DNA from: Methanococcus maripaludis
GTDB lineage: Archaea; AGJL01; Methanococci; Methanococcales; Methanococcaceae
Assembly: GCF_013760955.1 (NCBI RefSeq)
Contig: NZ_JACDUL010000003.1
Coordinates: 316,872-380,871, forward strand
Direction of reading: 5' to 3'
Length of the DNA stretch: 64,000 nucleotides
The position numbers and the translations under genes were made by a program. This document shows positions 23,749 through 32,783 of this stretch, piece by piece. Below the pieces are notes generated by a model. It searched no databases. It saw nothing but the letters and a program-made list of their open reading frames with translations, and was not told the origin of the DNA. The first letter of the stretch is position 1. Each line of letters begins with the position of its first letter.

Positions 23749-23917
23749 ATTTTAACCCCTCTTTTTCGTTTAAATGTATTTTAACCCCTAAATTTGGTTT
23801 CCACATATAAAATATCAATCCTTCAAAGACATATATTTTACCACTGAGTGCTAATTATTAGATAACCTAATGACAATTTTATATATCTTGATTGCTATAG
23901 TGACTATCGGTGCTCAT

Positions 23918-24574
23918 ATGATAGGAACGTGCATGCGATTTTCAAAACCTGAAAAAGGAGTAGATTTTACAGATTGGGGCCTTCATTTTTGCCCAAATAT
24001 TGATGAACACTTCAAAAATAAACTTAATGGGTTTCATGCGCCTATCGTAGATATAGGAACCCCGAATAAAACAGAAGGACTTGAAAAATTAAAAAATATA
24101 ATTGATAATATCCATGGAGCAGATTATTTAACAATACACCTCCACAATGGAAAAGAGCCTGAATACTATACTCTTTTAGATAATGTTTCAAAATTGAACG
24201 AATATTCAAAAAAAAGAAACATTGAACTTTGTATCGAAAATTTAAGAAAGGGATTTTCCTCAAAACCTGAAAATATAATGAATGTTGCAGAGGAAACCGG
24301 ATGCAGAATAACTTTTGATATCGGACATGTTGCCTATGAAAACAGAATGCACTGTATCGACCTTTTTTCAGATAAAATTTACAACGTACACACTTACGAA
24401 AAAGAATACGACAAAATAGGGCATGTTGCTCCAAAAGATTTAACAAATTTAAAACCTGTTTTAGATGGCCTTTTAGATGTTGGCTGTGATTTCTGGCTTA
24501 TAGAATTGATGAATGTCGAAGAAATAAAAAATACGAAAAACATGTTAAATAAATACCTTGAATACCATAAATAA
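23918..24574 (+). CDS. Xylose isomerase-like TIM-barrel protein
   Basis: About 218 residues with the pattern of sugar phosphate isomerase/epimerase or endonuclease IV-like barrels: LGTHLHNG-type strand (YLTIHLHNG), ELCIENLRKGFSSKPENI, TFDIGHVAYEN and VHTYEKEYDKIGH, each ending in a likely metal ligand (His, Glu, Asp, His). The start is ATG 23918 after CGGTGCTCAT. The frame is open 16 codons further upstream, but that part covers a TATA box (TTTTATATATC, about 23877-23887). It heads a run of four genes on this strand. Substrate unknown. Confidence 0.7.
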   Translation: MIGTCMRFSKPEKGVDFTDWGLHFCPNIDEHFKNKLNGFHAPIVDIGTPNKTEGLEKLKNIIDNIHGADYLTIHLHNGKEPEYYTLLDNVSKLNEYSKKRNIELCIENLRKGFSSKPENIMNVAEETGCRITFDIGHVAYENRMHCIDLFSDKIYNVHTYEKEYDKIGHVAPKDLTNLKPVLDGLLDVGCDFWLIELMNVEEIKNTKNMLNKYLEYHK

Positions 24575-24606
24575 ATTAAGTATTTCTAATTAATTTGGGT
24601 GTTATT

Positions 24607-25416
24607 TTGGATATCGAGTTTAAAAAATCGTTTAAAGAGTTAACTTTATCTAAAGATTGCTTAAAAATTATAGGGGAAAATAAAATTGATTTAAAAAAAA
24701 TTGCAATTGGAGAATTTTCTGGAAGGGATAGTGCGGCTGCAATTATAAAAGCTTTTGAAAATCCAGAAATTGATGCAGTTTTACCCATTTTAGCATTTAC
24801 TGGTACAGATTACGGTGAAAAGGAAATTTTTTATCGAAACTGGAATGTAATAAATAAAAAAATTAAAGAAACTTACGAAAATAAAATATTACTGCCCCTT
24901 CACTTTATTTTTGAACCGAAACTCTGGAATGCGCTTAACGGAAGATTTGTTGCATATACTGTTCAAAAATACGGTTATTACACGCCGTGTATCGGGTGTC
25001 ATGCTTATTTAAGAATGTTAAGAGTTCCTCTTGCAAAACATCTTGGAAAAAAAATTATTAGTGGGGAGAGGATACTCCACGATAATGACTTTAAAATAGA
25101 CCAGTTCAAAGAAACTCTCGAAACTTACTACAAAATATGCGAAGAATTCGATGTAGAACTTATTTTTCCAGTAAAAGACATTAAAGATGGGTCCAAAATA
25201 AAAGAAATTATTGGGGATAATTGGGAACAGGGTCAAAACCAGTATTCTTGCATGTTTAGTGGAAATTACCGAGATCTGGACGGCAAAGTAATATTTGAAA
25301 AGGAAAAAATTGTAAAAATATTAAACGAATTCATATACCCTGCATCCATTGAAATATTGAAAAAAGGATACCAAAACAATTTTAACTATCTCGAAACAGT
25401 GAAAAAGTTTCTTTAA
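24607..25416 (+). CDS. PP-loop-like ATPase of unknown function
   Basis: About 269 residues. The N-terminal GEFSGRDSAAAIIKAF resembles the PP-loop SGGxDS of ATP pyrophosphatases, with Arg replacing Gly. This is followed by a strand VLPILAFTGTDYG and, mid-protein, YTPCIGCHAYLRMLRVPLA with two cysteines and KIISGERILHD. These traits suggest adenylation of a substrate, as in tRNA thiolation or QueC-like enzymes, but I do not recognise a named family. Start at TTG 24607 with GGTGTTATT directly before it. It is 32 bases after the barrel gene and 10 before the mutase-like gene. Confidence 0.6.
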   Translation: MDIEFKKSFKELTLSKDCLKIIGENKIDLKKIAIGEFSGRDSAAAIIKAFENPEIDAVLPILAFTGTDYGEKEIFYRNWNVINKKIKETYENKILLPLHFIFEPKLWNALNGRFVAYTVQKYGYYTPCIGCHAYLRMLRVPLAKHLGKKIISGERILHDNDFKIDQFKETLETYYKICEEFDVELIFPVKDIKDGSKIKEIIGDNWEQGQNQYSCMFSGNYRDLDGKVIFEKEKIVKILNEFIYPASIEILKKGYQNNFNYLETVKKFL

Positions 25417-25426
25417 TGGATGTAAC

Positions 25427-26707
25427 ATGAGAACTTTGCTTGTATTATTAGATGGGCTTGGAGATAGGCCTTCTTGTATTTTAAACGATAAAACTCCACT
25501 CGAATATGCAAAAACTCCAAACTTAGATGCTTTTGCGAAAAAAAGCATAACTGGGTTGATGACACCATATAAAAGGGGCGTACCGCTTGGAACGGAAGTT
25601 GCCCATTTTTTACTATGGGGATACAGTTTATCAGAATTTCCTGGAAGGGGCGTTATTGAAGCTTTAGGCGAAGATATTGAACCTAAAGATAATGCCATTT
25701 ATCTAAGGGCTACTTTTGGGTACGTGGAAAGAAAAAATGGATTTTTTGTAAAAGACAGGCGCACTAAAAATGTTTCAACCAAAGAAATAAAACGCCTTAT
25801 AGAGTCCCTTCCAAAAAAAATTGAAAATTATGAATTTAAATTACATTATTCATTTGATACACACTGTATTTTAGAAATAACTTCTCCAAATTATGAAATA
25901 TCTGATAAAATATCCGATAGCGATCCATTTTATCGAGAAAGGCATGTTTTGAAAATAAAACCACTTAATAATCTACTAAAATCGTTAGAATTTGAAAATG
26001 CAAAAAAAACTGCCAACATATTGAACGAATATCTTTTAAAATGTAACGAAATTTTGGAAAACCACCCCCTAAATATTGAACGAGAAGAAAATGGACTTCA
26101 ACTTGCAAATTTCTTACTTACAAAGTGGGCAGGTCAAAAAACTGAAATTGACTCATTTAAAGATAGGTGGGGTATGAATGCTGCCATAATTGCAAAAAGT
26201 AGCGTTTTTAAGGGCCTGTCAAAATTGCTGAAAATGGATTACTATCCTGAAGGAGATTTTCAAAAAGCATTTTTAAAAGGAATTGAATTAAAAAATTACG
26301 ATTTTGTACACATCCATACCAAAGAACCCGATGAAGCAGCACATACTAAAAATCCAGCTAATAAAGTTGAAGTTATTGAAAAAATAGATAAATGTCTTGA
26401 AAAGATAAATAAATTAAACGAAGAGTTAATAATTGTTACGTCTGACCATTCTACGCCCTCTGTTGGAACATTAATCCATTCTGGAGAAGAAGTTCCGATT
26501 GCAGTATTTAAAAATGGAATTATAACTGATTCAAATAAATATTTTAACGAAAAAGAATGCTCAAAAGGATATATAAAGATCGAATCAAAAGATTTGATGA
26601 ATTTAATACTGCTTTACACAAACAAAGCGGCATTATATGATACAAGAATTGGAAATAAATTTTTAAGATATATTCCAGACGATGATTCGATTGAACATTT
26701 GAGATAG
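25427..26707 (+). CDS. Archaeal-type 2,3-bisphosphoglycerate-independent phosphoglycerate mutase-like protein
   Basis: The 426-residue protein belongs to the alkaline phosphatase superfamily, aPGAM/ApgM branch. It has LVLLDGLGDRPS with the metal aspartate, TPNLDAFAKKSITGLM, GTEVAHFLLWGY with the catalytic position, and the C-terminal metal sites HIHTKEPDEAAH and IVTSDHSTPSVG. Methanococci have more than one such gene, so the glycolytic enzyme may be elsewhere. The middle insert (DRRTKNVSTKEIKR) is typical of the archaeal branch. It sits in a four-gene operon of unknown role, so its substrate may differ from phosphoglycerate. Confidence 0.82.
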   Translation: MRTLLVLLDGLGDRPSCILNDKTPLEYAKTPNLDAFAKKSITGLMTPYKRGVPLGTEVAHFLLWGYSLSEFPGRGVIEALGEDIEPKDNAIYLRATFGYVERKNGFFVKDRRTKNVSTKEIKRLIESLPKKIENYEFKLHYSFDTHCILEITSPNYEISDKISDSDPFYRERHVLKIKPLNNLLKSLEFENAKKTANILNEYLLKCNEILENHPLNIEREENGLQLANFLLTKWAGQKTEIDSFKDRWGMNAAIIAKSSVFKGLSKLLKMDYYPEGDFQKAFLKGIELKNYDFVHIHTKEPDEAAHTKNPANKVEVIEKIDKCLEKINKLNEELIIVTSDHSTPSVGTLIHSGEEVPIAVFKNGIITDSNKYFNEKECSKGYIKIESKDLMNLILLYTNKAALYDTRIGNKFLRYIPDDDSIEHLR

Positions 26708-26716
26708 GTAATAATT

Positions 26717-27250
26717 ATGCCAAATTTATACTCCCATCTTGTTTTATCAAAAATATTTCTTGAGAAGGAATTTGCTGAAAATAGTTTTGATTTAAATAAT
26801 TTCTACTTGGGGGCCTGTGTACCCGATATTGGGTATTTTTCAGATGTTGAACGAAAAATTACCCATTTTTACGATTCTGCTCCGGAAAAATTTTTTGAAA
26901 ATAATACGGGTTCTGAAAAATCGTTTTTAAAAGGGTATAAACTTCATTTGTATTTAGATAATATCTGGAAATATGAAATAAGGCTTAAAAATAATATTTC
27001 GATTGAAGAAAATGCCTTAATCTACAATTATTTTGATGCGTTTTTGAAAAATAAGTTCAACATTGAATTAGAATCTTTTAAAAACTTTGTTTTAAACGGA
27101 AACTGCGATTTTCTAAAAAAATTAAATATTGATAGGAGTACGTGTAAAAACTGGAAAAAAAATTCATTTTATAATATTTCTGAGTTTGAATTTAATGGAA
27201 AATATCAAAAAATAGTTGATGAATACTTAAAAATTTTAAAAATTTGTTAA
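26717..27250 (+). CDS. Uncharacterised protein, possibly zinc-dependent phospholipase C-like
   Basis: The 177-residue protein starts MPNLYSHLVLSKIFL and contains LGACVPDIGYFSD, ITHFYDSAP and FLKGYKLHLYLDNIW. The spacing of His and Asp residues recalls the Zn-dependent phospholipase C / S1-P1 nuclease-like group, but the match is weak and by eye. Last gene of the run beginning at 23918 and only 9 bases after the mutase-like gene; ATG follows AGGTAATAATT. It is convergent with the ABC transporter. Confidence 0.5.
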   Translation: MPNLYSHLVLSKIFLEKEFAENSFDLNNFYLGACVPDIGYFSDVERKITHFYDSAPEKFFENNTGSEKSFLKGYKLHLYLDNIWKYEIRLKNNISIEENALIYNYFDAFLKNKFNIELESFKNFVLNGNCDFLKKLNIDRSTCKNWKKNSFYNISEFEFNGKYQKIVDEYLKILKIC

Positions 27251-31560: not shown

Positions 31561-32121
31561 CTAGTTTATTTTTACCCCTAATTCTGAAAGTATGTCTTTT
31601 GGGAATGGTTTTATTATGTAGTAAACAAGCACGCACGACAGGAGTTTATCCACCAAATTCGCTGGAACTCTGGCTAAAAATGCTGATGAAAAAATATCCT
31701 GGCCAGAATGTAAAAATACCGCAGTTAATAGGTCAACACCTCCGCCAACAAGTCCGCCGTATAGGTAAACTGCGATTGGTGTTCCAACCATTGGTGCAAG
31801 TATTGCAAGTACAAGACCCACAATTATTGAATTTTTAAGGGTTATTCCCCCTTTCATTGCAGCAAACCCTGAAACAATTCCAATTACAATATTTACTAGC
31901 GAAAACGGAATGTATGATGGGTCGAGTATAAATCCAAGTAAAATATTTGTAAAAAGACCCACCAAAGCTCCACCAACAGGGCCTAACAAAAAACCGCTCA
32001 ATACTGTTCCAATGCTATCCAAAAAGATAGGCAAATTTAAAAAAGTTGCAATTTGGCCACCGATCGCATTGATTGCGATTCCAACGGGAATTGTTGTCAT
32101 GTAAAGTACTTTTTTGTTCAT
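31561..32121 (-). CDS. ECF transporter S component, first paralogue
   Basis: 186 residues from ATG 32121, preceded by GGTGCTATA; the longer open frame upstream is unlikely to be translated. Five or six membrane segments with the small-residue-rich, glycine-rich helices of S components: LPIFLDSIGTVLSGFLLGPVGG, LVGLFTNILLGF, and GTPIAVYLYGGLVGGGVD. It is clearly related to the next protein (32223-32783): both share FLDSIGT, LGP..GALVGL.TN and YFGG/YLYGG motifs and have 186 residues. Vitamin or cofactor-precursor uptake is likely; substrate unknown. Confidence 0.7.
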   Translation of the reverse strand: MNKKVLYMTTIPVGIAINAIGGQIATFLNLPIFLDSIGTVLSGFLLGPVGGALVGLFTNILLGFILDPSYIPFSLVNIVIGIVSGFAAMKGGITLKNSIIVGLVLAILAPMVGTPIAVYLYGGLVGGGVDLLTAVFLHSGQDIFSSAFLARVPANLVDKLLSCVLVYYIIKPFPKDILSELGVKIN

Positions 32122-32163
32122 TATAGCACCATTAAAGTTTAATGGCAATATTCTGGATTATAA

Positions 32164-32222: not shown

Positions 32223-32783
32223 TTAATCTCCAAATTTTAAATCATAAACAGAAAGTTTGTCCTGTAATAAGTATATTATAAAAAATGCAACCATGAAAGA
32301 GAGAATTTTGTCTGCGAAATTTGTATAAAGTCCTGCGGCAAATGCAGCAGTTGGAATCCCCTGTCCAAGCGCAATTATCGTTTGAGTAATATGTCCCACT
32401 CCACCGTCAGTTATTCCGCCAAAGAAATATATCGAAACCATATTTCCCATGATTGAAGAAATTATTGATACAACTATTGCGGCTAAAAATATTGTTTTAA
32501 AATTAATATTTTTTGTGTGAAGCATTATTCCAGCAGTAAGCCCGATTAAAACATTTACGACTGCAAAAAGAAAGTTTTCCTTAGATATTAAAATACCAGT
32601 TATCAAATTTGTGGCAAGCCCTACAAGCGCCCCAATATGTGGGCCCAGTACCATTGCACTGAATATCGTTCCGATACTGTCAAGATAAAGTGGAAAAAGA
32701 TAAACACTTTCAACATATGAACCAAAAATATTTAGTCCCATACTAAGCAATAAAATTCCAGAAAATAAAACTCCGTATCTCAA
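32223..32783 (-). CDS. ECF transporter S component, second paralogue
   Basis: A 186-residue membrane protein related to the gene just downstream: FPLYLDSIGTIFSAMVLGPHIGALVGLATNLITG aligns with that protein's first half, and SIMGNMVSIYFFGGITDGGVG with its second. Start is TTG 32783 after GAGGGGATGTT. About six membrane segments. Two S components beside one EcfT suggest two substrates, or two forms of one, handled by the same module. A dyad GTG(7)CAC lies just upstream. Confidence 0.68.
   Translation of the reverse strand: MRYGVLFSGILLLSMGLNIFGSYVESVYLFPLYLDSIGTIFSAMVLGPHIGALVGLATNLITGILISKENFLFAVVNVLIGLTAGIMLHTKNINFKTIFLAAIVVSIISSIMGNMVSIYFFGGITDGGVGHITQTIIALGQGIPTAAFAAGLYTNFADKILSFMVAFFIIYLLQDKLSVYDLKFGD

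Follow-up and report, generated by a model that had tools for sequence, protein, structure and literature searches.

What does an operon do that places a sugar-type barrel enzyme and a phosphomutase-like enzyme beside a PP-loop protein? The question is raised by the window analysed here, a 64,000-nucleotide stretch of Methanococcus maripaludis DNA (contig NZ_JACDUL010000003.1, positions 316,872 to 380,871), in which four open reading frames (ORFs) follow each other on the forward strand: APE, a xylose-isomerase-like barrel; PPL, a PP-loop protein; MUT, a relative of the archaeal phosphoglycerate mutases; and SML, a small protein (Table 1). An earlier note on this DNA had described a four-gene operon of no named pathway with intergenic gaps of 32, 10 and 9 bases and with SGRDS and CIGC motifs in the PP-loop-like protein. 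The coordinates and strand of the ORFs bear out this layout, and both motifs are present in PPL, within GEFSGRDS and PCIGCH. We lean towards the explanation that APE, PPL and MUT form a module of selenium-metabolism genes that has so far gone undescribed; that selenium is involved in their function is quite probable, while the particular chemistry that we propose is tentative.

Among the 36 genomes of the window's phylum, PPL matches were found in 25, and strong APE matches (E <1e-20) and operon-type MUT genes (counted, on our reading of the match rows, from pieces of at least 47% identity) were found in the same 25 genomes. The 11 genomes without PPL, three of which are of low completeness (G019, 81%; G020, 64%; G021, 54%), are also without operon-type MUT, with MUT identities of at most 39%, and in one of them, G032, APE is matched partially, with 56% identity across 72 residues. 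Both families of the order retain the arrangement APE-PPL-MUT; in G002, G005 and G006, PPL and MUT are adjacent and APE, also retained, is separate from them, at a distance of 18 kb or on a different contig. The earlier note had asked whether the set is conserved in other methanogens, and for these three genes it is. Since the distributions of APE, PPL and MUT agree and SML occurs in 10 of the 36 genomes only, the conserved core consists of three genes, with SML as a lineage-specific add-on. Thus, the operon and the PP-loop and mutase-like assignments of the earlier note stand, while its inclusion of the small fourth gene in the set does not. An essential central pathway was considered for the operon and rejected, as 11 of the 36 genomes lack PPL and the copy in G024, counted among the 25, is decayed and broken by stops.

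Outside the phylum, PPL matches were found in two of 278 sampled archaeal genomes, one clear (G837, E 8e-55) and one weak (G086, E 6e-8 in this sample and 2e-5 in another PPL search). The relative in G837 (L185:9542-10285) has no MUT or APE match within the surrounding 20 kb. That in G086 (L026) is a more remote PP-loop protein that reads SGGPDS and has its cysteines at similar positions; of the three genomes of this genus, one has it.

The earlier note missed both the spread of the genes to bacteria of several phyla and their tie to selenium metabolism. When the GTDB species collection was scanned with two peptide patterns, which reach close PPL relatives only, 35 PPL loci were obtained, 30 of them bacterial, in Clostridia and relatives (including Peptoclostridium litorale, Natronincola, Tindallia, Acidaminobacter and Tissierellia), Desulfobacterota and one metagenome-assembled genome (MAG) of Actinomycetota. 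Of the 30 bacterial loci, 25 have MUT downstream of PPL; as for the other five, L090 and L092 end just past PPL, PPL is truncated in L093, and L070 and L071 lack MUT. PPL and MUT are unbroken direct neighbours in 21 bacterial loci, and 17 of these show a 4-base overlap between the two. APE is part of the cluster in four of the 30, in Desulfobacterota and one actinomycetote, with the order APE-PPL-MUT in L074 and PPL-APE-MUT in L087, L088 and L089. Because the order APE-PPL-MUT, the position of MUT downstream of PPL and the 4-base overlaps recur, the operon goes beyond chance adjacency, and the earlier view that it is real is upheld by gene order and pairing kept across lineages. A PHP-domain gene stands beside PPL-MUT in 12 of the 30 loci and may replace APE there; in other bacterial groups, genes for a flavin adenine dinucleotide (FAD) oxidoreductase, LarE or ribonucleotide reductase adjoin the pair. 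In four clostridial loci (L075, L079, L138 and L139), a LarE-type sulfur insertase gene directly follows MUT (TIGR00268, 331 bits in L075; typed by tblastn in the other three), and in three more (L083, L084 and L086) the gene after the PPL-MUT-PHP set encodes a ribonucleotide reductase.

The tie to selenium was assessed through SelD, called by the TIGR00476 cut-off, using Fisher tests that ignore kinship. Within the window's phylum, each of the 25 genomes with PPL also has SelD, as do 29 of the 30 bacterial PPL genomes, these 29 all with an in-frame TGA. By comparison, 66 of 291 sampled Clostridia have SelD (41 of the 66 with TGA), and the two genomes of this sample with PPL both have it (p = 0.05). 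In a sample of 297 genomes from one order, 212 with SelD and 24 with PPL, SelD was found in 24 of 24 genomes with PPL compared to 188 of 273 without it (p = 2e-4, kinship uncorrected); 17 of these 24 PPL genomes are also among the 30 bacterial PPL loci.

Selenium genes also adjoin the core in separate lineages. In both genomes of one group (g4), presumably Methanotorris, the SepSecS gene comes next after MUT (TIGR03531, 576 and 583 bits), and in G025 it lies 3 kb upstream of the operon. A Se_S_carrier gene (PF11823, DUF3343) is the next gene in 7 of 12 loci of the Methanocaldococcus family (Methanocaldococcus sp. SG1, L060, is one example); it was typed by Pfam in one of the seven and by tblastn in the rest, and in one it follows a decayed operon. 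In the same 12 loci, some of which are too short to show further neighbours, seven have a gene for a double-cubane reductase (NF040772, typed in one) ahead of APE and five have a TudS-related gene nearby. The bacterial locus L074 reads YedE, DUF3343, a Carb_kinase protein, an opposite-strand ORF, SelD, APE, PPL, MUT and YedF. In L065, genes for a CD3073-family S component of an energy-coupling factor transporter (ECF-S) and for a TudS-related protein lie upstream of PPL, with YedF ~3 kb downstream of MUT. Double-cubane genes are found near PPL in one further bacterial genome (L068/L151). TudS enzymes remove sulfur from 4-thio-UMP using a [4Fe-4S] cluster (PMC10611767), and the occurrence of TudS-related genes close to the module would therefore be in keeping with recovery of the chalcogen.

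Two published accounts touch on this neighbourhood. Comparative genomics led to the proposal of YedE, YedF and DUF3343 as genes of selenium metabolism (PMC5322559), on the same kind of evidence as is used here for APE-PPL-MUT, namely genome context and SelD co-occurrence, and they adjoin the operon in some lineages; the cited part of that study does not list PPL, MUT or APE as candidates. In Methanococcales, a phosphoglycerate mutase was recorded in the neighbourhood of secS and may have been exchanged, in either direction, with Asgard archaea (PMC11227280); this is very likely either the operon MUT or a second MUT paralogue described below. The cited part of that account gives the mutase no selenium function and leaves PPL and APE unmentioned.

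PPL itself, which starts at a TTG codon, is unnamed in Pfam and NCBIfam, since neither library gives a relevant match; the 29 members of our PPL alignment drew one stray Pfam match, in one member. Sequence searches of the PDB gave one weak unrelated match from the single sequence and three from a profile. The structure model (mean predicted local distance difference test, pLDDT, 87.9) has a PP-loop fold, matching YcfA, ThiI, MnmA, QueC and LarE with Z scores of 9 to 20. The nearest entries by far are those of YcfA (9kq6 and 9kq7; Z 20.1, root-mean-square deviation 2.6, 210 residues aligned), a PP-loop enzyme of 6-thioguanine synthesis that thiolates a guanine nucleotide; ThiI follows at 13.5, two more ThiI-type entries near 13 and others at ~9 to 11.5. 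While YcfA thus matches over the whole domain, it shows no detectable sequence similarity to PPL, has 12% identity in the structural alignment and has different operon partners.

The 29 aligned rows share a loop SG[RK]DS in place of the PP-loop SGGxDS, with Gly39, Asp41 and Ser42 invariant and the second glycine replaced by arginine or lysine. Glu36, Cys128, Cys131, His132, Arg155, His158, Lys163, Gln166, Cys215 and Asn220 are invariant as well. The three cysteines, the last of which sits in an S/CxxS-N-Y motif near the C-terminus, are kept in 29 of 29 rows, and no other cysteine is invariant. In NcsA of M. maripaludis, a [4Fe-4S] cluster is held by Cys142, Cys145 and Cys233, leaving one iron free for sulfide (PMC10067955). 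The spacings of these cysteines, 3 and 88, resemble the 3 and 84 of PPL, and the [4Fe-4S] tRNA thiolases NcsA and TtuA likewise combine a PP-loop with three conserved cysteines, as is characteristic of the NcsA/TtuA/TtcA subfamily; however, they also have zinc-binding cysteine sites at both ends (PMC10067955), while PPL has only its three invariant cysteines. By analogy, PPL may carry a three-cysteine [4Fe-4S] site. In L034, L036 and L039 (from G005, G002 and G006), the PPL ORFs are 384-417 aa long compared to 269 aa, owing to long insertions.

Several observations weigh against a selenium module. SelD fails as a discriminator inside the window's phylum, because 33 of the 36 genomes are over the cut-off and eight of these are without PPL. 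The class-level test in Clostridia, at 2/2 (p = 0.05), is weak alone, 188 of the 212 SelD genomes in the order sample lack PPL, and one bacterial PPL genome, the 1.4 Mb MAG G102, has no SelD over the cut-off. At bacterial loci other than L065 and L074, no match to SelD, YedE, YedF or DUF3343 was found, and DUF3343 is itself recorded without SelD in the cited part of PMC5322559. In the PPL model, the loop that carries Cys215 (residues 213-218) has pLDDT <50. The module might instead make a sulfur-containing nucleotide or thio-cofactor, its SelD link arising from strict-anaerobe ecology and kinship: SelD genomes without PPL are many, the PPL fold neighbours of known action all transfer sulfur or activate amides, and some loci have relatives of the sulfur enzymes TudS and LarE nearby. 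We nevertheless consider this unlikely, since SepSecS, SelD, YedE, YedF and DUF3343 adjoin the core in lineages that are separate from each other and SelD is found in 66/291 Clostridia compared to 29/30 bacterial PPL genomes.

The presence of ThiI and MnmA among the fold neighbours, together with the tRNA thiolation carried out by three-cysteine PP-loop enzymes (PMC10067955), could also indicate that PPL modifies tRNA, producing a thio- or seleno-nucleoside, with MUT and APE serving indirectly. We regard this as improbable. Pfam gives no domain beside the PP-loop part of PPL, hence no THUMP or other RNA-binding domain; the nearest fold, YcfA, is a small-molecule enzyme; and tRNA modification does not account for the operon's having a mutase and also a sugar barrel.

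MUT matches PF01676 and PF10143 in Pfam and exceeds the TIGR00306 (apgM) cut-off (344 bits vs 320), although it falls below that of the equivalog PRK04024 (307.5 vs 489), and the members from Peptoclostridium and Desulfobacterota score 310 and 272 on TIGR00306, below the cut-off. When 23 operon rows were compared with 17 canonical-type apgM rows, the metal-site motifs were found to be kept in 23 of 23 operon rows, like the fold family as a whole. In contrast, 15 of 17 canonical rows have DRRAGRI and the Arg-Gly of ANxILPRG, and all 23 operon rows have other residues in their place and are also one residue shorter after the GY motif. The nucleophile is serine in all 17 canonical rows but threonine in 17 and serine in 6 of the operon rows; that of the window's MUT is threonine. 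In a tree of 44 rows, the two types part at 100/99. Judged by these motifs and this tree, the operon MUT branches off separately within the family of archaeal phosphoglycerate mutases and keeps the catalytic but not the substrate motifs of apgM. Mutase activity is said to have been reported for Methanocaldococcus jannaschii relatives of MUT, a report that our literature search did not find. That MUT is a spare glycolytic phosphoglycerate mutase with incidental neighbours, as its passing TIGR00306 and the reported mutase activity might suggest, is very improbable given the second, canonical-type apgM in 25 of 25 operon genomes of the phylum, the replaced substrate motifs, the separate clade and the PPL-MUT pairing across domains; the earlier note was thus probably right in holding the mutase-like enzyme not to be glycolytic.

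Four Methanococcus genomes have a second MUT paralogue (L051:10317-11600, reverse strand; L052:9772-11073, forward strand; L165 and L166), which falls inside the operon clade and has lost the later metal-binding Asp/His motifs, so that it is likely a dead enzyme; it lies 2.5 kb from SepSecS in both loci examined. MUT proteins with long insertions, including asparagine-rich runs, are found in L034, L036 and L039 (512-524 aa compared to 426 aa).

For APE, an in-frame ATG at 23870 offers an alternative start, but most aligned relatives start at the residue equivalent to 23918. The protein just passes PF01261 (31.9 bits, cut-off 31.1) and has sub-threshold matches only in NCBIfam. His74, Glu107, Asp134, His137, His158, His169 and Glu196 are invariant in an alignment of 14 relatives and likely form a metal site. 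The model (pLDDT 94.0) matches a tagatose 3-epimerase-like protein best (Z 22.2, root-mean-square deviation 2.8, 218 residues aligned), and the best matches overall are ketose 3-epimerases and sugar isomerases. Because dehydratases and UV-damage endonuclease share this fold, the reaction of APE may be of several kinds. A role as the cobamide phosphodiesterase CbiR was rejected, as NF041277 gave 29.5 bits for the window's protein and 31.8 for that of L087 against a cut-off of 105.

Two further elements lie beside the core in the window. SML matches PF00882 (30.1 bits, cut-off 26.8) and nothing in NCBIfam. A CD3073-family ECF-S gene is located 4.3 kb from the operon, with a three-gene ABC transporter between; it is 52% identical to the ECF-S beside PPL in the bacterial locus L065 and is possibly associated with APE-PPL-MUT. 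A second ECF-S component at 32226-32783 on the reverse strand reaches 114.7 bits, under the CD3073 cut-off, and relatives of the window's ECF-S genes are near the operon also in G001, G003 and G004.

Table 1. Features of the window discussed in the text (positions count from the first nucleotide of the window).
Feature	Position	Strand	Description
APE	23918..24574	+	218 aa xylose-isomerase-like TIM barrel, PF01261; likely metal enzyme
PPL	24607..25416	+	269 aa member of an unnamed PP-loop family; loop SG[RK]DS, PCxGCH, third invariant Cys
MUT	25427..26707	+	Alkaline-phosphatase-superfamily phosphotransferase, operon-specific apgM branch (TIGR00306, motifs, tree)
SML	26717..27250	+	177 aa zinc-phospholipase-C-like protein, PF00882; lineage-specific companion outside the core
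CD3073-family ECF transporter S component	31564..32148	-	NF045596, 185.6 bits (cut-off 180)

How might these proteins act together in selenium metabolism? In the chemistry that we tentatively propose, PPL would adenylate a small nucleotide-like substrate at a carbonyl, whose oxygen would then be displaced by selenide (or sulfide) bound to the open iron of the putative PPL cluster. MUT, by way of a Ser/Thr phospho-enzyme, would move or transfer a phosphate of the sugar part, and APE would isomerise, epimerise or hydrolyse the sugar-phosphate part, perhaps in this order. The product, in which selenium would be used over sulfur, would be a selenium-bearing small molecule that acts as a cofactor or that stores or carries selenium; certain lineages may import it through ECF-S and then strip it by a TudS-related desulfidase. 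The sugar-containing or nucleotide substrate that the earlier note had suggested is in keeping with the predicted folds, which a nucleotide or sugar-phosphate would fit. Beside selenocysteine, selenouridine, the selenium cofactor and selenoneine, there could accordingly be a further SelD-linked trait, a seleno-nucleotide or selenosugar-phosphate made by PPL, MUT and APE in selenocysteine-using archaea and bacteria and spread by gene transfer between the domains; we hold this extension of the selenium reading with limited confidence.

Among the matches listed in our search of titles and abstracts in the open-licence literature, no description of the APE-PPL-MUT set was found, and a search of the same literature for archaeal phosphoglycerate mutase gave no paper. 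Searches by locus tag returned one unrelated paper for M. jannaschii and none for M. maripaludis, and the terms of the operon were not found in the cited portion of the main text of a selenium study of M. maripaludis (PMC11097638), a species in which, as the same portion describes, markerless deletion has been used (PMC11097638). A cross-domain, SelD-tied gene set around an unnamed PP-loop family would be a concrete candidate for the means by which selenium-using prokaryotes store selenide, carry it and keep it separate from sulfide, and one that is testable in Methanococcus maripaludis.

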